DNA from: Brevundimonas fluminis
GTDB taxonomy: Bacteria; Pseudomonadota; Alphaproteobacteria; Caulobacterales; Caulobacteraceae
DNA: 64,000 nt
Direction: 5' to 3'
Assembly (NCBI RefSeq): GCF_003934285.1
Contig: NZ_RQWJ01000006.1
Span: 62,001-126,000, forward strand
Positions within the stretch are counted from its first letter, which is position 1. Each line of letters starts with the position of its first letter. Below, in pieces: positions 13,159 to 22,110 of this stretch. A program made the translations under genes and the position numbers. A model generated the notes under the pieces. That model saw only the letters and a list, made by a program, of their open reading frames with translations. It had not been told where the DNA came from and ran no database searches.

Positions 13159-14562
13159 TCAGAACTGGAAGTAGATGAAGGGCGCCACGCCCTCGGGCCG
13201 AACGGCCTCGACCAACAGGAACGCCGCGCCGATCAGAAGGCCCATCGTGATCGACGGCGCGTCCTTCAGCCGGGCCGTCAGCCCTTCCGCCGCCCGCGAC
13301 GGCAGCCAGTGCATGCCGAGGCCCACCACTATGAGACCCAGCAGGAACGGAGTCGTCACGACCGCGGGTCCCCACCGGCTCAGGCCCTCCAGCATGGCCA
13401 CGGCCAGGTCGAAGGTCTCGGCCCGGAACAGAATCCACCCCAGACAGACCACGTGGAAGGTGATCAGCACGCCCAGCCACATCGGAATGACCTTCCGCTC
13501 TCCGAAGGCGCGCTTGCCGACCCGCTCCACGACCTGCGCCCCGCCGTGCAGGGCGCCCCACAGCACGAAGGTCCACGCCGCCCCATGCCACAGGCCGCCC
13601 AGCAACATGGTGATCATCACGTTGAGGCTGGAGCTGAACGTCCCCTTCCGACCGCCGCCCAGCGGCACATACAGATAGTCGCGCAGCCAGCTGGACAGAC
13701 TGATGTGCCACCGCCGCCAGAACTGCTGCATCGAATGCGCGCGGTAGGGCTGGTCGAAGTTCCGCGGGAAGGAATAGCCCAGCAGCGCCGCGATCCCGAT
13801 CGCCATGTCCGAATAGGCCGAGAAGTCGCAGTAGATCTGCACCGCATAGCCATAGACGGCGGCGGCGACGTCCAGCGCCGAATAGGCGGAGGGATCGAAG
13901 AACACCGGATCGACCAGCCGCACGGCCAGCTCCGACGCGATCACCGTCTTCTTGAACAGGCCCCACACGATCAGCAGCAGGCCATGCGTCGCCATTTCCC
14001 GCGTCAGGCGCGGCGTTCGGTCGAACTGCGGCAGCAGGTCGGACGCGCGCACGATCGGCCCGGCGACCAGATGCGGGAAGAAGCTCATCAGCAGCATGAC
14101 GTCCAGCAGGCTCTTCGCCGGCTCGGTCGTGCGGCGATGCACGTCCACGACGTAGCTGATGCCCTGGAAGGTGAAGAAGGAAATCCCGACCGGCAGGATC
14201 ACCTGCAGCAGCGGCAGGTCCCGCTCCCAGCCCACCCGCGCCAGCAGCTGCCCCATCTCCTCGACGAAGAAGCCGTAGTATTTGAAGAAGCCAAGGATCA
14301 GCAGGTTGATCGCCACGCCCAGCGCCACCAGCCACTTCCGCGTCGACGGCTTTTCCTTGCGCGCGATGAGCGCCGCCACGCCCCAGTTCAGCACCGCCGA
14401 CAGGATCAACAGGCCGACGAAGCGCCAGTCCCACTGGGCGTAGAAGAACCAGCTGGCCAGCAGCAGGAACAGCTTGCGCCGTCCGTTCTCGCGATCCAGC
14501 GACCACGAGGTGAAATAGACGAACAGGAAGAAGACGCCGAAGGCGAGCGTCGGGAACAGCAT
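13159..14562 (-). CDS. MBOAT-family membrane O-acyltransferase (AlgI/DltB-like)
   Basis: A 467-residue polytopic protein with 10 or more hydrophobic segments. The MBOAT active-site region is clear: GGLWHGAAWTFVLWGALHG, with the invariant His about residue 326 and a second His about 339. YCDFSAYSDMAIG and RRWHISLSSWLRDYLY are also typical of AlgI/PatA-type enzymes. It probably takes acetyl groups from a cytoplasmic donor and passes them across the inner membrane to a periplasmic SGNH partner that modifies an envelope polymer. Two SGNH-type genes lie directly upstream (1-nt gap to the first). The acceptor polymer is unknown. Confidence 0.9.
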   Translation of the reverse strand: MLFPTLAFGVFFLFVYFTSWSLDRENGRRKLFLLLASWFFYAQWDWRFVGLLILSAVLNWGVAALIARKEKPSTRKWLVALGVAINLLILGFFKYYGFFVEEMGQLLARVGWERDLPLLQVILPVGISFFTFQGISYVVDVHRRTTEPAKSLLDVMLLMSFFPHLVAGPIVRASDLLPQFDRTPRLTREMATHGLLLIVWGLFKKTVIASELAVRLVDPVFFDPSAYSALDVAAAVYGYAVQIYCDFSAYSDMAIGIAALLGYSFPRNFDQPYRAHSMQQFWRRWHISLSSWLRDYLYVPLGGGRKGTFSSSLNVMITMLLGGLWHGAAWTFVLWGALHGGAQVVERVGKRAFGERKVIPMWLGVLITFHVVCLGWILFRAETFDLAVAMLEGLSRWGPAVVTTPFLLGLIVVGLGMHWLPSRAAEGLTARLKDAPSITMGLLIGAAFLLVEAVRPEGVAPFIYFQF

Positions 14563-14563
14563 C

Positions 14564-15763
14564 CTAGGGCGTCCCCGCCCGACCGACCTTCCAGGCCTCG
14601 TAGGCGCCGATCAGGTCGTCGGCCAGCAGACCGCCGATCCACTCGCCGCCCGCCGAGGTGAAATGCACGCGGTCCCCGCGCATCAGGGGCTCGGGCGACG
14701 TCGCCAGCCGCTCCGCCGAACACTCTCCGCCCATCCGCCCCTGCCAGTCCCAGAACGCGACGCCCGTCTCGGCCGCGACCAGCCGTTGCAAATGCCGGAC
14801 CCGCGCGAGGTTCGCCGGCGGTCCCCGTTCCGGAACGCCCCGGCACGCCGGGGATTCGCCCCGCCTCAAGGCGTCCGGCGCCCCCAGCAGCAGAATGGCG
14901 GCGTCCGGCGCGAACACGCGCATGCGCCGGATCTGGTCCCTCAGCGTCGCCTCGTAGACGTAGAAGTCCAGCCCGCCGTCGAAGCCCTCGTTGGTGCCGA
15001 AGGCGAGGATGATCAGGTCAGGCCGGAACGGCGCCAGCTCGGCCCGCACCGTCGCCTCGTCGCGGGCCTGAAGGTCCGCCAGGGTCGCCCCGACCTGGCC
15101 GACGTTGCTCAGGATCACGCCCGGCTCGGCCCCCTCCAGCCAGACCCCGTCCAGCGCGCCGCCGGGGCCCGTCGGTCGCACCGTCAGGCTGCGCGCCGAC
15201 GGGTCGACCGAGGCCGTGCGGCACTGCGGGCCGAACAGCTCCAGCTCCGCCGCCTCGACTCCGTCCGCCTCCACGAGCCAACGCCCGTCCCGGCCGCAAA
15301 GACCGACGCGCGCCGTCGCCGCTTCCGGATCCAGCGCCAGCGTCAACGCCCCGCCCTCGAACACGCGCGCCGGGCCACCGAAAAGGCCGGTCGTCTCCGC
15401 GCTCAGATAGCCGCCGACCCGCGCCGGCTTCGGCGTCCAGCTCCAGCCGCTCACCGTCGCGACCGCCTGCCGCGGGGCGTAGCCGTCGTAGGGAATGCCC
15501 GGCGCCAGATAGCCGCGTCCGCCGCGCCCGAACCGGCCCTGAAGCCGGCTGCGCACCGTGCCCGGGATGACCTCGCCGGCCGTGTGGCTGTCGCCGATCT
15601 GCACGACGTGGACCTTGATCGGCGCCCCGGCTTCCAGCCGCGCCAGATCCTCGAACCAGGGGTTCAGGGCCTCCGCCCCGCACAGGCCGCCGGGACACGT
15701 GGCCTCCTGCCCGGCCGCCGGCGCGGCCAGCGCCAGCAGCGCGGCCGCCAGAAGCGCCCTCAC
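14564..15763 (-). CDS. Exported SGNH/GDSL-type O-acetyl transferase or esterase
   Basis: A 399-residue protein with a signal peptide (hydrophobic to about residue 18). SGNH blocks are all present: IGDSHTAGE (Ser about 59), a Gly in the NVGQVGAT region, FGTNEG (Asn block III), and GDRVHF with catalytic Asp about 364 and His about 367. The middle holds a roughly 120-residue beta-rich insertion (residues about 100-215), as in the OAT-associated SGNH proteins that pair with MBOAT enzymes. It is translationally linked on both sides: 4-nt overlap with the DUF459-like gene and 1 nt from the MBOAT gene. Its likely job is to put acetyl groups on, or remove them from, a periplasmic glycan. Confidence 0.82.
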   Translation of the reverse strand: MRALLAAALLALAAPAAGQEATCPGGLCGAEALNPWFEDLARLEAGAPIKVHVVQIGDSHTAGEVIPGTVRSRLQGRFGRGGRGYLAPGIPYDGYAPRQAVATVSGWSWTPKPARVGGYLSAETTGLFGGPARVFEGGALTLALDPEAATARVGLCGRDGRWLVEADGVEAAELELFGPQCRTASVDPSARSLTVRPTGPGGALDGVWLEGAEPGVILSNVGQVGATLADLQARDEATVRAELAPFRPDLIILAFGTNEGFDGGLDFYVYEATLRDQIRRMRVFAPDAAILLLGAPDALRRGESPACRGVPERGPPANLARVRHLQRLVAAETGVAFWDWQGRMGGECSAERLATSPEPLMRGDRVHFTSAGGEWIGGLLADDLIGAYEAWKVGRAGTP

Positions 15764-16647
15764 TCAGCCAGGCCCGCGTCGCGCCGGATCGCGGCCTCCA
15801 CCGGACCGGCCAGCCGCAGATAGCCGTCCATGCTCATGTGGATGCCGTCGTTGGCGCGCATCAACCGGCGACGCCCGCCGTCCTCGGCATAGGGCATGTA
15901 CTTGCCGCTCGCGTCCGAGGTCAGGCTGACCGTCTCCAGATAGGGGACCCCCAGCGCCTTCATCCGCGCCTCGACCACCTCGTTGATCAGCGCCATCCGC
16001 CCGTCGAAGCCCTCGCGCTTCATGCGCGGCATCCCGACCCAGTAGACGACGACGCCGCGCGATCGGAACAGGCCCACCAGATCGTCGATCCGCCTGCCGT
16101 AGGCGGCCTTCCATCCGTCCGTGCCGAAGGCGTGCACCGTCCCGCCGTCGTCGATGCCCTGGGCGTCGTTGGTGCCGAACACGACCACCGCGACGTCCAC
16201 CGGGCCGTCGTCCAGCTGGCGCGTGGTCTTGGCGTGAATGTTGACGTAGTCGTAGCGCGACAGGCCCGTGGAGACCTCGCTGAACTTGGTCACCTCGACG
16301 CCCGGATCGTCGCTGAACTCGCGGTACAGCGCCGCCCAGACGCCGTCGCCCATGCTGTCGCCGAACACCCCTATCCGCAGGTTTCCGGCCTTCGTCTTCA
16401 GAACCGAGGCGTCCTGCGCCTGCACGACGGGCGCCGTCGGCGGCGCCACGACCGGCCGTGGCTCAGGCTCGGGGCTGGCCGAAGCGTTAGCCTGTCCGCC
16501 CAACATCAGAGTGGGCGACCTCAACCACGCGCGCCCGTCCGGCGTCAGGGCCAGCCCCCCCACCACGCCCGCCACGAACATCGCGGTCAGTGAATTGACG
16601 CCGAACTTCACGCCCGCCCCCACGCGGTTAACCCTTCGGAGGCGCAC
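15760..16647 (-). CDS. DUF459-type SGNH hydrolase, membrane-anchored
   Basis: About 295 residues. A hydrophobic stretch near residues 19-36 probably anchors it, followed by a Pro/Ala-rich linker. The catalytic domain carries FGDSMGDG (Ser about 98), VVFGTNDAQG (block III Asn/Asp) and NDGIHMSMDGY near the C-terminus with the Asp-x-x-His pair. This pattern matches DUF459 proteins. It is the first gene of the putative O-acetylation operon. The GTG at 16647 is used here; GTG at 16623, with AAGGG eight bases upstream, is equally possible. A second SGNH enzyme beside the first suggests separate transfer and trimming steps. Confidence 0.78.
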   Translation of the reverse strand: MRLRRVNRVGAGVKFGVNSLTAMFVAGVVGGLALTPDGRAWLRSPTLMLGGQANASASPEPEPRPVVAPPTAPVVQAQDASVLKTKAGNLRIGVFGDSMGDGVWAALYREFSDDPGVEVTKFSEVSTGLSRYDYVNIHAKTTRQLDDGPVDVAVVVFGTNDAQGIDDGGTVHAFGTDGWKAAYGRRIDDLVGLFRSRGVVVYWVGMPRMKREGFDGRMALINEVVEARMKALGVPYLETVSLTSDASGKYMPYAEDGGRRRLMRANDGIHMSMDGYLRLAGPVEAAIRRDAGLAE

Positions 16648-16704: not shown

Positions 16705-17118
16705 TTAACCGAAACGTCCCTCGGCCCAACGTGCGGCGAAGTATCCCCCCGTAGCCGTCAGCGCCGTCAGCGCCGTGCCCCACACCAGGTCGATGATCGT
16801 CAGCTTCGTCGACCATACCGACAGCGTCGCCTGGTTGGTCAGGTCATAGGTGCCGTAGGCGATCAGCCCCAGCACCGCGCCGTGGATCAGGGCCCGCGTC
16901 CATTGCCCGTCCTTCAGCGCCGGCGCGACGGCGAAGAAGCAGACGCCGAAGATGTACAGCAGATAGAAGACCACCGCCGCCTTCATGTCCGGCTTGTCGG
17001 CCATGATCGGGCCGATGATCGGCCGGTACAGGCGATCGGCCATGGTGGTCAGCCAGACCGCGTCGATCGCCGCCATCGTGATCGCCGCGCCCAGATATCC
17101 CGCGACCCATTTGATCAT
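16705..17118 (-). CDS. DUF2177 integral membrane protein
   Basis: A 137-residue protein with four hydrophobic helices. It opens WVAGYLGAAITMAAIDAVW and contains YGTYDLTNQATL, the conserved core of DUF2177. Its ATG overlaps the stop of the methyltransferase gene by 4 nt, so the two are translationally coupled. In other bacteria DUF2177 genes recur beside CFA-synthase-like methyltransferases, FAD oxidoreductases and DUF1365 genes, exactly the set seen here. Molecular role unknown; membrane lipid modification is the contextual guess. Confidence 0.85.
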   Translation of the reverse strand: MIKWVAGYLGAAITMAAIDAVWLTTMADRLYRPIIGPIMADKPDMKAAVVFYLLYIFGVCFFAVAPALKDGQWTRALIHGAVLGLIAYGTYDLTNQATLSVWSTKLTIIDLVWGTALTALTATGGYFAARWAEGRFG

Positions 17119-18167
17119 GTCGTCGTCTCCTCCGTCGGCTTGAGCAGGTAATGGCTGACGGCCCAGGTGTTTCCGCCGTCGTTGCCGAACAGACCGGCCG
17201 TGGCGAGATAGAACCGCCGCCAGCGCCGCCGCCACAACTTCCAGTCGTCGCCGTACGTCTCGCGCATCAACTCCGACACGCGGTCGACGTTCAGATCCAT
17301 GTTCTTCAGCCAGTGCTCGGCGGTCCGCTGATAGTGGACGCCGTTCCAGGTCCACTCCCGCTCCACCTCGAACAGGTCCGGAAACTGCCGCATCAGCCCC
17401 TTGGACGGCATCACCCCGCCGGTGAAGAAGTGCTGGGCGATGAAGTCGCCCCCGTCCGTGTGGTCGAAGCGGTAGGGGGCGTCCCTGTGGGTGAAGATGT
17501 GGATGAACATCCGCCCGTCCGGCTTCAGCCAGCCCTTCGCCCGCGTCAGCAGGGCGCGCCAGTTGGCCATGTGCTCGAACATCTCGACCGACACGACGCG
17601 GTCGAACCGCTCCGCCTCGCCGACCTCGGGCCGGAAGTCGTTCATGTCCTGCGTGATGACCGTCAGGTTGGTCAGCCCTCGCGCCGCGGCCTGCGCCTCG
17701 ATGTGTCCGCGCTGACCATGGCTGTTCGACACCGCGGTGATCTCGGAGCTCGGATACCGCTCGGCCATCCAGAGGCTGAGCGAGCCCCAGCCGCAGCCCA
17801 GTTCGAGGATCCGCTGCCCGTTCGCCAGTCCCGCGCGGTCGCAGGTCTCCGCCACCGCCAGCGCCTCGGCCTCCGCCAGCGTCTCGTCGCCGGTGGGGTA
17901 GAGGCAGCACGAGTACTTCAGCCGCGGCCCCAGACAGATGCGGAAGAATTCCGGCGGCAGCTCATAGTGTTGATCATTGGCGGCGTCCGCATGCTCCGCC
18001 ACCGCGCGCTTCGCCATGTCGGCCGCGAAGGCCGCCTCGTCGTGCGGGCCTTCCCGATCCAGCCGCTTGCGCGCCTCGGTGACCAGCGCCGCGATCGCCG
18101 GGCGGGTCACGAAATCGGGGAACGGCGCGTCCTGCAGGCTGCGGATGGCGGCTGTGGCCGGATTCAT
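17115..18167 (-). CDS. Cyclopropane-fatty-acid-synthase-like SAM methyltransferase
   Basis: About 350 residues, a little shorter than E. coli Cfa (382). SAM-binding motif I is ILELGCGWGS (near 120-129). SVEMFEHM and HIFTH in the second half match the CFA synthase fold. KYSCCLYP appears where Cfa has its YSCAYF-like segment. It would add a methylene or methyl group to unsaturated acyl chains of phospholipids. The start is the ATG at 18167 preceded by a GGGAAGAAAT purine tract; an upstream extension is not supported. It is divergent from the FAD oxidoreductase at 18334. The pair of operons resembles Rhodobacter loci for fatty-acid methylation (furan fatty acids), recalled from memory. Confidence 0.85.
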   Translation of the reverse strand: MNPATAAIRSLQDAPFPDFVTRPAIAALVTEARKRLDREGPHDEAAFAADMAKRAVAEHADAANDQHYELPPEFFRICLGPRLKYSCCLYPTGDETLAEAEALAVAETCDRAGLANGQRILELGCGWGSLSLWMAERYPSSEITAVSNSHGQRGHIEAQAAARGLTNLTVITQDMNDFRPEVGEAERFDRVVSVEMFEHMANWRALLTRAKGWLKPDGRMFIHIFTHRDAPYRFDHTDGGDFIAQHFFTGGVMPSKGLMRQFPDLFEVEREWTWNGVHYQRTAEHWLKNMDLNVDRVSELMRETYGDDWKLWRRRWRRFYLATAGLFGNDGGNTWAVSHYLLKPTEETTT

Positions 18168-18222
18168 CGGTTGATTTCTTCCCTTGGGCTTGAGGACGGC
18201 CGCTGCGACGACGCGTCCACGC

Positions 18223-18316
18223 GCGGAACGGCTCCGCTTCTGCGTCATTGATACGCACCGTACGGCGAGTTGGATGCCTGACATCCGTCCGACGACGCGG
18301 TCCGTATTTGTCGGAC
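18223..18316. promoter_or_regulatory. Cluster of inverted repeats in divergent promoter region
   Basis: Within 94 bp between the two divergent lipid-modification operons lie five inverted repeats: GCGGA/TCCGC (18223-18237), TGCGT/ACGCA (18241-18257), the perfect CCGTACGG (18258-18265), GGATG/CATCC (18272-18286), and GTCCG/CGGAC (18300-18316, with another GTCCG at 18287). The arms are 4-5 bp. Some are probably operators for a shared regulator, but none matches a site I can name. Confidence 0.4.
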
Positions 18317-18333
18317 GCAGATCAGGAGCCTTC

Positions 18334-19695
18334 ATGTCCTTCTCGCCGGCAGCCCCCCTTCCCGCGAACTCCGGCGGCAAGCGCGTCGCCGTGGTCGGCT
18401 CCGGCATCTCCGGCCTTTCGGCCGCCTGGCTGCTCTCGCAGACGCACGACGTCACCCTGTTCGAGGCCGACGACCGCCTCGGCGGCCACTCCAACACCGT
18501 GGACGCCCCCTCGCCGGCCGGACCGATCGCCGTGGACACCGGCTTCATCGTCTTCAACGAGGCCAACTATCCGAACCTGACCGCGATGCTGGCCCACCTC
18601 GGCGTGGCGACCAAGCCGGCCATGATGTCCTTCGCCGTCTCCATCGACGAGGGCGCGCTGGAGTACTGCACCCAGGGCCTGCGCGCCCTGTTCGCCCAGA
18701 AGCGCAACTGGGCCAGCCCCCGCTTCTGGCGGATGATCGGCGACATCCTGCGCTTCCAGAAGGAGGCGCCTGAACAGCTGACGGAACTGGAAGAGACGGG
18801 CGAGAGCCTCGACGCCTGGCTGGGCCGCAACGGCTACGGGCCGATGTTCCGCAACGCCTACCTCCTGCCCCAGGCCGCGGCCATCTGGTCCTGCACCCTG
18901 GAGCAGATGACCGACTATCCCGCCGCCGCCTTCGTCCGGTTCTACATGAACCACAACCTGCTGACCTACGACCTGCGCCCCACCTGGCGCACCGTCGACG
19001 GCGGCAGCCGCGAGTACGTCGGCCGACTTCACGCCGCCCTCGCGGGTCGCGTCGTCACCGGCGCCCGCATCGCCGCCGTCGTCCGGGATCAGGACGGCGC
19101 GGCCCTGCGGATGGAAGACGGCGCGCTTCTCCGCTTCGACGAGGTCGTGCTGGCCACGCATTCGGATCAGGCCCTGCGGCTGCTGGAGGCGCCGACCGCG
19201 CCCGAGCGCCGCCTGCTGGGCGCCATTCCCTACCGCGCCAACCGCGCCGTCCTGCACCGCGACGTTTCGTTGATGCCGCGGCGGCGCAAGGCCTGGGCCG
19301 CCTGGACCCACATGGGCCGCTCCGACCGCGCGGGCGAAGGCGGGGTCACCTACTGGATGAACGAACTCCAGTCGCTGCCCGGCCCGCCCCTGTTCGTCAG
19401 CCTGAACCCCGCCCGCGAGCCCGACCCCGAACTGGTCATCGGCGAATGGGACTATGAGCATCCCGTCTTCGACGTCGCCGGCGTGGCGGCGCAGAAGGAG
19501 CTGTGGAGCCTGCAGGGTCAGGGCGGCGTCTGGTTCGCCGGCGCCTGGTTCGGCGCGGGCTTCCATGAGGACGGCCTTCAGGCCGGTCTGGCCGTCGCCG
19601 AGGCCATCGGCGGCGTCCGCCGTCCCTGGCAGGTCGAAAACGAGAGCGGCCGCATCCATCTGCCGACCGCCGTGCGGTGGGCCGAGGCCGCGTGA
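18334..19695 (+). CDS. FAD-dependent amine-oxidase-type oxidoreductase
   Basis: A 453-residue protein. The N-terminal dinucleotide motif VAVVGSGISGLSAAWLL is followed by an acidic strand end (LFEADDRLGGHSNT) that binds FAD. The C-terminus has the second FAD block (GVWFAGAWFGAGFHEDGLQAGL). This is the flavin 'NAD/FAD-binding protein' family regularly paired with DUF1365 and CFA-like genes. AGGAG five bases before the ATG at 18334 fixes the start. It probably oxidises or desaturates a lipid chain; substrate not shown. The stop overlaps the DUF1365 start. Confidence 0.85.
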   Translation: MSFSPAAPLPANSGGKRVAVVGSGISGLSAAWLLSQTHDVTLFEADDRLGGHSNTVDAPSPAGPIAVDTGFIVFNEANYPNLTAMLAHLGVATKPAMMSFAVSIDEGALEYCTQGLRALFAQKRNWASPRFWRMIGDILRFQKEAPEQLTELEETGESLDAWLGRNGYGPMFRNAYLLPQAAAIWSCTLEQMTDYPAAAFVRFYMNHNLLTYDLRPTWRTVDGGSREYVGRLHAALAGRVVTGARIAAVVRDQDGAALRMEDGALLRFDEVVLATHSDQALRLLEAPTAPERRLLGAIPYRANRAVLHRDVSLMPRRRKAWAAWTHMGRSDRAGEGGVTYWMNELQSLPGPPLFVSLNPAREPDPELVIGEWDYEHPVFDVAGVAAQKELWSLQGQGGVWFAGAWFGAGFHEDGLQAGLAVAEAIGGVRRPWQVENESGRIHLPTAVRWAEAA

Positions 19696-20459
19696 CGGCG
19701 GCGTCCGCCCTCTACGTCGGCCACGTCGTCCACCGTCGGCTGGCCGACTTCGACCACCGCCTGCGCTACCGCACCTGGATGCTGCTGATCGACCTCGACG
19801 CCATCGAGGCGGAGCGCCCGCGCCTGCTGTCCCGCCGCCGGTTCTCCCTGCTGTCCTGGCGCCCGACCGACCACGGCGACGGCTCCGGCACGCCGCTGCG
19901 CGCCCAGATCGAAGCCGTCCTCGCCGGGGCCGGCGTCCGCCTGGACGGCGGTCCCCTCCGCCTGCTGACGATGCCACGCGTGCTCGGCTACGGCTTCAAT
20001 CCGATCAGCGTGTGGTTCGCCTACGGCGCCGACGGCGTCCTGCGCGGTCTGGTGCACGAGGTCACCAACACCTTCGGCGAACGGCACAGCTACGCCGTGC
20101 CCGCCGGCCTCGGCGCCGACGGCCGCGCCCGCCACGCGACCGACAAGACCCACTTCGTCTCGCCCTTCATGGATCAGGCCCTGACCTATGAGTTCGAGGT
20201 TCACGCCCCCGACGACCGCGTCTCCGTCGCCATCCTGGCGAAGCGCGACGGCCGCCCCCTGCTGACCGCGTCCTTCGCGGGCGAGCGCCGCCCGCTGACC
20301 GACGCGGCGCTGGCCCGCCTGTTCGTCACCCACGCCCTGCTCACCTTCAAGGTCACCGCCGCCATCCACTGGGAGGCGCTGAAGATGATGCTCAAGGGCG
20401 CCCGCTACCGCCACCGGTCGGCGCCGCCGAAAGAGCCGGTCACCGTCGGCCGCACCTGA
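19692..20459 (+). CDS. DUF1365 protein
   Basis: A 255-residue protein starting at a GTG that overlaps the previous stop (GTGA), so it is made by coupled translation. Conserved DUF1365 segments include YVGHVVHRRL at the N-terminus, VLGYGFNPISVWF in the middle, and VTNTFGERHSY followed by KTHFVSPFM. There is no membrane helix. Members sit almost always beside the FAD oxidoreductase and the CFA-like methyltransferase, as here, which points to a shared lipid-modification job, although its own reaction is not known to me. Confidence 0.88.
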   Translation: MTAASALYVGHVVHRRLADFDHRLRYRTWMLLIDLDAIEAERPRLLSRRRFSLLSWRPTDHGDGSGTPLRAQIEAVLAGAGVRLDGGPLRLLTMPRVLGYGFNPISVWFAYGADGVLRGLVHEVTNTFGERHSYAVPAGLGADGRARHATDKTHFVSPFMDQALTYEFEVHAPDDRVSVAILAKRDGRPLLTASFAGERRPLTDAALARLFVTHALLTFKVTAAIHWEALKMMLKGARYRHRSAPPKEPVTVGRT

Positions 20460-20546: not shown

Positions 20547-21251
20547 ATGCGGAAGATCTATCCGGACGCGAAGTCCGCGTTGGAGGGGCTGACCTTCGAC
20601 GGCATGACCGTCATGTCCGGCGGCTTCGGCCTGTGCGGCATCCCGGAAAACCTGATCGCGGCCCTGCGCGACACGGGCGTGAAGGGGATCACCGTCATCT
20701 CCAACAACGCGGGCGTCGACGGCTTCGGCCTGGGCCAGCTGCTCGAGACGAAGCAGATCGCCAAAATGATCTCGTCCTACGTCGGCGAGAACAAGGAGTT
20801 CGAGCGCCAGTATCTGGCCGGTGAGCTGCAGCTGGAGTTCAACCCCCAGGGCACCCTGGCCGAGCGCATCCGCGCGGGCGGCGCGGGCATCCCCGCCTTC
20901 TTCACCGCCACCGGCGTCGGCACCCTGGTCGCGGAGGGCAAGGAGCTCCGCAACTTCGACGGCCGCGATTACGTCATGGAGACCGGCCTGGTCGCCGACC
21001 TGTCGATCGTGAAGGCCTGGAAGGCCGACGAGCGCGGCAACCTGGTCTTCCGCAAGACGGCCCGGAACTTCAATCCCATGATGGCCACCGCCGGCAAGGT
21101 GACCGTGGTCGAGGTCGAGGAGATCGTCCCGACCGGCTCGCTCGACCCCGACCAGATCCACACCCCCGGCATCTACGTCGACCGCCTGATCCAGGGCACG
21201 TTCGAGAAGCGCATCGAGCAGCGCACCATCCGTCAGCGCGAGACGGCGTGA
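20547..21251 (+). CDS. scoA: Succinyl-CoA:3-ketoacid CoA-transferase, subunit A
   Basis: A 234-residue subunit. The glycine-rich CoA-binding start is [15 protein letters not shown], and [11 protein letters not shown] and [17 protein letters not shown] are conserved in ScoA/AtoD-type alpha subunits. With subunit B it moves CoA from succinyl-CoA to acetoacetate and so feeds ketone bodies into acetyl-CoA. The thiolase at 38722 in this window could complete the route. GAGGAAG lies just before the ATG. Its stop overlaps the start of a small membrane-protein gene (TGATG) that separates it from subunit B. Confidence 0.93.
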
Positions 21252-21451
21252 TGGAAGAGCGCCACTTCGCCCTGCTGAAAAGCATCAGCGACAAGCTGAC
21301 CTGGGCCCTGATCTTCCTCTTCATCATCATGCTGAACACCTGTGCGGTCAGCGACGACGTGGAAGACGCCATCCGCGACTCGCGCCGCGACCGCGCCGAC
21401 ACCGAAGCCGTCACGCCCGCCCCCGCGCCCGTCTCGAAGGAAGCCGCCTGA
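21251..21451 (+). CDS. 66-residue single-pass membrane protein between CoA-transferase subunits
   Basis: A short protein with a polar N-terminus ([16 protein letters not shown]), one hydrophobic helix (about residues 17-35, [17 protein letters not shown]) and an acidic/basic then Pro/Ala-rich tail. Both ends overlap their neighbours in TGATG junctions: the scoA stop with its start, and its stop with the scoB start. It is therefore part of the same translational unit. GTG at 21248 would add one residue. No known family recognised. Being wedged between two subunits of a soluble enzyme is unusual. Confidence 0.7.
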
Positions 21452-22110
21452 TGCCCCGCACCCGCGACCAGCTCGCCGCCCGCGCCGCCCAGGAACTGCG
21501 GGACGGCTTCTACGTGAACCTCGGAATCGGCATTCCGACGCTGGTGGCGAACCACATCCCGGCGGGGATGGAGGTGACGCTGCAGTCGGAAAACGGCATG
21601 CTCGGCATGGGACCCTTTCCCTATGACGACGAGGTCGATCCCGACCTGATCAACGCCGGCAAGCAGACGATCACCGAGATCCCGGAGAGCGCCTACTTCA
21701 GCTCGGCCGACAGCTTCGCCATGATCCGCGGCGGCCACATCAACCTGTCCATCCTCGGCGCCATGGAAGTCGCCCAGAACGGCGACATCGCCAACTGGAT
21801 GATCCCGGGCAAGCTGGTGAAGGGCATGGGCGGGGCCATGGACCTGGTCGCCGGCGTCAAGCGCGTGGTCGTGGTCATGGAGCACGCCAACAAGCACGGC
21901 CAGTCCAAGGTGCTGAGGTCCTGCACCCTGCCCCTGACCGGGACGGGCGTGGTCAGCCGCGTCATCACCGACCTGGCCACCTTCGACGTCAAGCCGGACG
22001 GCTCGGGCCTGGTCCTGATCGAACTGGCCGACGGCGTGACGCTGGAGGAGGTCGCCGCCAAGACCGAGGCGGCCTACGAAATTGCCCCTGGGTTGAAAAC
22101 CGTCGCATAG
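21451..22110 (+). CDS. scoB: Succinyl-CoA:3-ketoacid CoA-transferase, subunit B
   Basis: A 219-residue beta subunit. The catalytic Glu lies in [12 protein letters not shown] (near residue 50), the SENG motif of family-I CoA-transferases, which forms the glutamyl-CoA thioester. [11 protein letters not shown] and [14 protein letters not shown] are further signature blocks. Its ATG overlaps the stop of the small membrane-protein gene. It works as a heteromer with ScoA. Confidence 0.94.

Follow-up and report, generated by a model that had tools for sequence, protein, structure and literature searches.

How does a bacterium run a predicted furan-lipid gene module without ChrR, the textbook sensor of that pathway? 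The question is raised by the divergent locus at positions 16705-20459 of a 64,000-nucleotide stretch of Brevundimonas fluminis DNA (the window; C7:62001-126000 of the 2.64-Mb, 10-contig genome, here G000). It is likely that a SigK-type extracytoplasmic function (ECF) sigma factor and its anti-sigma factor RskA control the module in this lineage in place of SigE-ChrR. The evidence lies in the sequence: the gene families, a divergent promoter pair, the absence of ChrR, co-occurrence across the genus, linkage in four relatives, the tree of UfaD proteins, and covariation in an RNA linked to rskA. The module is composed of the following features.

16705-17118, minus strand: DUF2177 small membrane protein, 137 amino acids (PF09945, 4.5e-44), second gene of the leftward operon
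17115-18167, minus strand: S-adenosylmethionine (SAM)-dependent fatty-acyl methyltransferase with a CMAS fold, 350 amino acids (PF02353, 8.2e-42)
18252-18276, minus strand: predicted ECF-type promoter of the methyltransferase-DUF2177 operon (-35 CATCC at 18272-18276, N16, -10 CGTA at 18252-18255)
18282-18306, plus strand: predicted ECF-type promoter of ufaD-ufaO (-35 CATCC at 18282-18286, N16, -10 CGTA at 18303-18306)
18334-19695, plus strand: UfaD-like flavin adenine dinucleotide (FAD)-dependent fatty-acyl desaturase, FAD amine-oxidase-like, 453 amino acids (PF01593/PF13450)
19692-20459, plus strand: UfaO-like DUF1365 protein, 255 amino acids, the presumed furan-forming oxygenase (PF07103, 2e-70; UfaO is a DUF1365 protein, PMC7380195)

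The start codons are those chosen by us, and the open reading frame list holds longer frames for all four genes. With these starts the divergent halves are separated by 166 bp (18168-18333), and the ufaD and DUF1365 frames share 4 bp, placing an FAD/nicotinamide adenine dinucleotide-binding desaturase and a DUF1365 protein in one operon. An earlier note, made from the letters alone, had named these four families and the 166-bp gap, and Pfam and the chosen starts bear it out. Papers cited by PMC accession, here and below, are represented by excerpts of their text.

Each strand of the gap carries CATCC-N16-CGTA, with the two -35 boxes innermost, and the same arrangement is present in 30/30 of the nearest relatives' loci. 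Both sites occurred together in 0/20000 shuffles and at least one site in 25/20000, figures that are post hoc on their own because the pattern was chosen after the relatives had been inspected; the weight therefore rests on conservation. Across 53 loci (the 52 of the window UfaD lineage and G070), scored within 450 nucleotides with spacings of 15-17 allowed, 47 have the forward site and 45 have both; G099 and G113 also have a forward site, lying outside the stretch cut for this count, and no promoter site was seen in G025 with these settings. Neither window site has the GATCC-N16-CGTA form of the ECF11 SigE-ChrR type; both are CATCC, as are some SigE-type sites.

The exact motif is found six times in G000, compared with once for the reversed control pattern. 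Two of these matches are in the gap, one lies directly 3' of rskA, one is intergenic (C7:47484), and two (C3:290709 and C4:568863) are inside reading frames and were rejected as chance. With one mismatch allowed, a slightly longer pattern matches at 44 places and its reversed control at 15; some of the 44 may belong to a wider regulon. The intergenic match, an exact CATCC-N16-CGTAGCT at C7:47481-47508 (L141:2482-2509, minus strand), is located ∼370 nucleotides 5' of a receptor-like gene, which we take from its sequence to be of the TonB type, and is a possible further regulon member. A GATCC-N16-CGTA match 5' of the genome's cyclopropane fatty acid (CFA)-class gene, and in five relatives, is probably within upstream coding sequence and was set aside.

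As for the sigma factor, a search for ChrR (TIGR02451) gave no matches in G000 and detected the positive control, Caulobacter vibrioides. The suspicion in the earlier note that control here may be different, prompted by the lack of an ECF sigma/ChrR pair nearby, thus gains support, since ChrR is missing from the whole genome and SigK-RskA is present instead. Sigma-70 region 2 has 11 matches in G000, one of which (L034) is called SigK-like here because it scores below the NCBIfam SigK cut-off; its best solved-structure match is SigK 4nqw, presumably the M. tuberculosis protein, ahead of RpoE 2q1z. The neighboring gene codes for an RskA_C anti-sigma factor (PF10099, 2e-12), which lacks cysteine and has a single hydrophobic stretch at residues 95-119. 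Aligned to 4nqw, SigK cysteines 130 and 180 are kept in 56/56 relatives' SigK proteins. The corresponding M. tuberculosis residues are cysteines 133 and 183 (PMC7509140), which form an oxidant-dependent disulphide in a redox-sensitive sigma factor (PMC8103513).

The pair shares a SigK-like sigma, the conserved cysteine pair and an adjacent RskA_C gene with the SigK-RskA systems of Mycobacterium and Yersinia (ECF18/ECF19), whose regulon includes mpt70 and mpt83 and, in the excerpted text, names no furan-lipid genes (PMC7509140). By analogy, the nearest precedent appears to be RpoE-ChrR of R. capsulatus, an alphaproteobacterial photooxidative stress system in which the sigma resembles SigK (34%) and the anti-sigma resembles RskA (25%); no RSP_1090/91 homologs are listed in the excerpt, and the system therefore has no furan genes linked to it there (PMC7074977). 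Among the matches listed in open-licence PubMed Central, as excerpted, none ties SigK-RskA to furan fatty-acid genes.

The distribution of the two anti-sigma factors follows that of UfaD across 131 Brevundimonas genomes. The UfaD lineages were split at 59% identity, and G004, absent from the tree but with ChrR adjacent to UfaD, was placed by hand in the ChrR group; ChrR was counted above the cut-off only (59 of the 64 genomes with any match), and RskA at E 0.001 (the weakest row is G071, split over two contigs). RskA is present in 51/52 genomes of the window lineage and ChrR in 1/52; in the other lineage ChrR is present in 58/59 and RskA in 1/59 (G070, without ChrR). Moreover, four relatives carry sigK-rskA within the ufa cluster itself. 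In G018, G100 and G070 the methyltransferase, DUF2177, sigK and rskA genes stand in a row close to ufaD-ufaO, and in G113 sigK-rskA adjoins the methyltransferase gene. Of the 131 genomes, G018 (L172, L218) is the sole one in which UfaD is accompanied by both RskA and an above-cut-off ChrR.

When 84 UfaD proteins are placed on a maximum-likelihood tree, those of the 52 SigK genomes form one group with one change needed (support 97/92), and a group of 56 is formed when G070, L042, L045 and L047 are included (100/97); four SigE-type Brevundimonas UfaD proteins are placed elsewhere, and the placement of G070 and G094, both on long branches, is uncertain. The separation of SigK and SigE UfaD proteins makes the two types of module look like two cassettes rather than the product of an in-place promoter change. 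A one-base promoter switch within the genus was rejected as the whole story, given the separate UfaD lineages and the use of CATCC in SigE genomes too. The sister loci L042, L045 and L047, picked after the tree had been inspected, are from genomes not titled Brevundimonas, each with RskA_C, a SigK at 55-56% beside RskA, and no ChrR above the cut-off (G133, one of the three, has two weak matches). In all, 22 genomes were searched outside the genus: RskA_C is present in 10, ChrR above the cut-off in 13, and neither in 4. Of 80 proteobacterial loci from named genomes, many have UfaD homologs adjoining SigE-ChrR, and no best match to SigK or RskA was found in the fetched flanks (tblastn, 1e-4); the linkage is therefore a Brevundimonas feature so far.

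The SigE-type relatives illustrate how such a replacement might come about. Their 14 loci, from 12 distinct genomes (L176 repeats L122, and L048 repeats L124), have the same head-to-head geometry and N16 spacing in the sigE-ufaD gap, with GATCC in 13/14 on the sigE side and 10/14 on the ufaD side. The window thus shares its target genes, geometry and spacing with the ECF11 SigE-ChrR singlet-oxygen regulon, and differs from it in lacking ChrR, in having CATCC where SigE-type sites mostly have GATCC, in SigK-lineage sites that often read CGTAGCT rather than CGTATT or CGTATC, and in an anti-sigma, RskA, with a single hydrophobic stretch and no cysteine. The similarity of the sites suggests that SigK and SigE recognize nearly the same promoter, in which case replacement would be easy. 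In two SigE-type genomes, G060 and G022, the methyltransferase-DUF2177 genes (78-80% identity) directly adjoin CoA-transferase genes with no ufaD-ufaO between them; the ufaD-ufaO pair at the CoA-transferase site is thus present in the window lineage and absent from these two genomes of the other lineage. In the window, the CoA-transferase genes lie 3' of UfaO at 20547-22110.

Taken as a mechanism, UfaD would desaturate and UfaO would oxygenate a methylated acyl chain to give a furan, the window methyltransferase would supply a methyl, perhaps the second one in the manner of FufM, with CFA/UfaM-class enzymes encoded elsewhere, and DUF2177 would act as a membrane partner. Both operons would start from the head-to-head ECF promoters, and we infer that these would be bound and read by the SigK-like sigma of the ECF18/19 type. 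This sigma retains the redox cysteine pair, and the membrane anti-sigma RskA would hold it until oxidants release it. SigK would also drive transcription of a small structured RNA beside rskA. SigE-ChrR runs this gene set in R. sphaeroides and, judging by position, would also do so in the other Brevundimonas UfaD lineage.

Judged by its families, the gene set is very likely to make protective furan-type membrane lipids. UfaD (RSP1091) and UfaO (RSP1090, DUF1365) of R. sphaeroides take a methylated 18:1 chain by way of a diene to a furan, RPA2569-2571 of R. palustris perform the same conversion, and the RSP1091-1090 and RPA2571-2570 pairs are required for furan formation (PMC7380195). The earlier note, which knew of no established reaction for DUF1365, is therefore outdated and wrong on this point, UfaO being reported to take the methylated diene to the furan (PMC7380195); its comparison with stress-induced furan fatty-acid loci is supported, the UfaD-DUF1365 genes matching the UfaD/UfaO pair. 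The module resembles the R. sphaeroides/R. palustris pathway (UfaM, UfaD, UfaO, FufM) in its adjacent UfaD and DUF1365/UfaO operon and its SAM-dependent acyl methyltransferase, and differs in that the methyltransferase belongs to a second class, is divergent and is accompanied by DUF2177, with no ChrR and with CFA/UfaM-class genes elsewhere.

The class of the methyltransferase is evident from its identity of 59-63% to eight members of a class mostly found near DUF2177, versus 29-36% to eight members of the UfaO/UfaD-adjacent (CFA/UfaM) class. Two CFA/UfaM-class genes are located elsewhere in G000, at C5:213884 and C3:748711; the former codes for a protein with 45% identity to a UfaO-adjacent Bradyrhizobium enzyme and 57% to an enzyme divergent from ufaD in G018. 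R. palustris carries UfaM, RPA3082 (38% to UfaM) and FufM (RPA0924; 26% to UfaM), the last of which adds a second methyl (PMC7380195). The window enzyme may be FufM-like, by elimination, because it is not of the CFA/UfaM class and such genes are located elsewhere in the genome. A member of the window class (52% identity) is present in one of the two Bradyrhizobium genomes searched, where the fetched 6 kb contains no DUF2177, so the methyltransferase-DUF2177 pairing is not universal. It is unlikely that the products are instead methyl-branched or dimethyl acyl chains or cyclopropanes from a general membrane-modification island: the position of the methyltransferase outside the CFA/UfaM class would suit them, and we know of no reaction for DUF2177, but the UfaD-DUF1365 pair is of the kind required for furans in both reference organisms, and the CFA-class enzymes of G000 could act as UfaM. 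In Chlamydomonas, singlet oxygen co-induces DUF2177, CFA1, CFA2 and DUF1365 genes (PMC4067076, Table 5), which by analogy ties DUF2177 to the same response without assigning it a reaction.

Several observations weigh against control by SigK-RskA. The SigK-like protein scores 145 bits against the NCBIfam SigK model, below its cut-off of 226; no exact promoter site was found 5' of sigK in G000 within a 1.5-kb flank; and G000 encodes other ECF sigma factors. The co-occurrence counts are not independent, coming from a single UfaD lineage, and have exceptions: G107 has neither RskA nor ChrR and G018 has both, 6 of the 20 genomes without UfaD (none with ChrR) nevertheless have RskA, and sub-cut-off ChrR matches occur in five genomes, four of them in the window lineage (G091, G100, G101 and G106, E 1.8e-4 to 7e-4, uncounted). 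RskA and ChrR are not mutually exclusive outside the genus, where 5/22 genomes have both. Finally, CATCC is present on the ufaD side of 4/14 SigE-type loci, and G060 and G022 have CATCC-N16-CGTATT 5' of the same methyltransferase gene, so the sigma cannot be identified from the -35 box by itself. The additional sigma genes and the CATCC promoters of SigE-type genomes are what would be expected if another ECF sigma reads these promoters and SigK-RskA merely travels with the lineage. We nonetheless regard this as distinctly improbable, because sigK-rskA is within the ufa cluster in four relatives, the motif precedes the rskA-linked RNA even where RNA and rskA are apart, and the replacement of ChrR matches the UfaD lineage, with the sister loci in agreement.

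The five inverted repeats that the earlier note described in the gap are not confirmed as such. A permissive finder returns 11 perfect and imperfect inverted-repeat pairs over 18150-18350, and with arms of at least 6 and loops of 3-60 there is one perfect repeat, whereas 1000 dinucleotide shuffles average 2.1 and 89% of them reach the observed count; repeats as such were rejected, their number not being above chance. The expectation of conservation among relatives holds for the promoter elements and fails for the 8-bp repeat CGTCCGAC/GTCGGACG, which was not seen by eye in the nearest relatives G081 and G089 and was rejected. That the repeats are sites of a dedicated repressor or activator, such as a MerR/LitR light sensor, has the palindromic centre of the gap (GGATG-N5-CATCC) in its favor but, although no search for LitR was made, is highly improbable, as the two halves are promoters in their own right, each with -35 and -10 boxes at a constant N16 spacing, SigE-type genomes keep the geometry, mostly with GATCC, between sigE and ufaD, and the repeat count is at chance level.

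The match 3' of rskA introduces a further element, located outside the window.

G000:C4:633636-633771 (L142:2218-2353): structured small RNA with a SigK-type promoter, directly 3' of rskA

The exact promoter is present directly 3' of rskA in 20/30 loci, and a relaxed promoter followed by a hairpin is found in 40/52, spanning ∼90-130 nucleotides in total (194 in one), with the hairpin loop GCCCUUCC nearly invariant across the alignment. Alignment A1 contains 35 of the 40 RNA sequences, G020, G034, G077 and G084 (short) and G121 (insertion) being left out. Two stems are supported, with 92.5% of cells paired and 11 pairs changed on both sides, and none of 500 shuffles pairs as highly. The first stem was not recovered by RNAalifold from the MAFFT alignment and was named by hand from G119, so the paired percentage leans towards that stem, though slid controls drop to 39-51%. 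A covariance model trained on rskA neighbours matches G000 at C4:633662-633771 (E 1.5e-5) and finds one copy each in 42/131 genomes (E 0.01), comprising 42/58 genomes with RskA and 0/73 without. Three of these genomes (G059, G064 and G085) lack UfaD. The RNA lies away from rskA in G018 (1.9 Mb), G100 (55 kb), and G047 and G071 (other contigs), where it is flanked by apparently the same genes and retains its own promoter, with CATCC in three and CATCT in G100. Rfam 15 gives no match at the RNA; L142, L149, L151 and L170, scanned to E 1, gave three weak unrelated matches.

Pairing of this RNA with the methyltransferase leader is a lead from sequence complementarity. A leader with UGUCAGGA over the ribosome-binding site is present in 19/25 genomes whose RNA has UCCUGACA and in 3/25 without it, or 19/28 and 3/22 when three genomes with the RNA elsewhere are added; the possible UCCUGACA-UGUCAGGA pairing thus spans 19/50 genomes, and kinship inflates the association. 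The window genome has the RNA and neither half of the pairing. Duplex energies give a mixed picture when set against shuffled methyltransferase leaders (mean z -1.35 over 36 genomes; +0.48 in the window genome), and the motif precedes other ATGs 3-12 times per genome in six genomes and therefore is not unique to the methyltransferase gene. A fuller scheme, in which SigK-RskA took over the furan regulon from SigE-ChrR and the SigK-driven RNA pairs with the methyltransferase leader (UCCUGACA with UGUCAGGA) in an incoherent feed-forward loop, is accordingly tentative and rather doubtful. UGUCAGGA is also located 5' of the start codon of a lipoprotein gene in L246, L248 and L250 (G042, G104 and G103), presumably LemA-like from our reading of its sequence.

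Beyond the DUF2177 gene, positions 13159-16647 of the window contain an MBOAT-like, an SGNH-like and a DUF459/GDSL gene in that order, reminiscent of an O-acetylation cluster; the MBOAT and SGNH labels are our assumption from the sequence, and the DUF459/GDSL gene has a PatB-like match below the cut-off.

Furan fatty acids are described as belonging to the singlet-oxygen response under SigE-ChrR, with feedback from the furan genes on the turnover of ChrR (PMC6852236). If SigK-RskA does control the Brevundimonas module, the same furan genes would run without ChrR and under a membrane anti-sigma factor, separating the lipid pathway from its textbook sensor. One genus would then provide a natural experiment on the change of sigma factor of a regulon, DUF2177 becomes testable in a simple module, and the rskA-linked RNA offers good covariation with no named family in Rfam.

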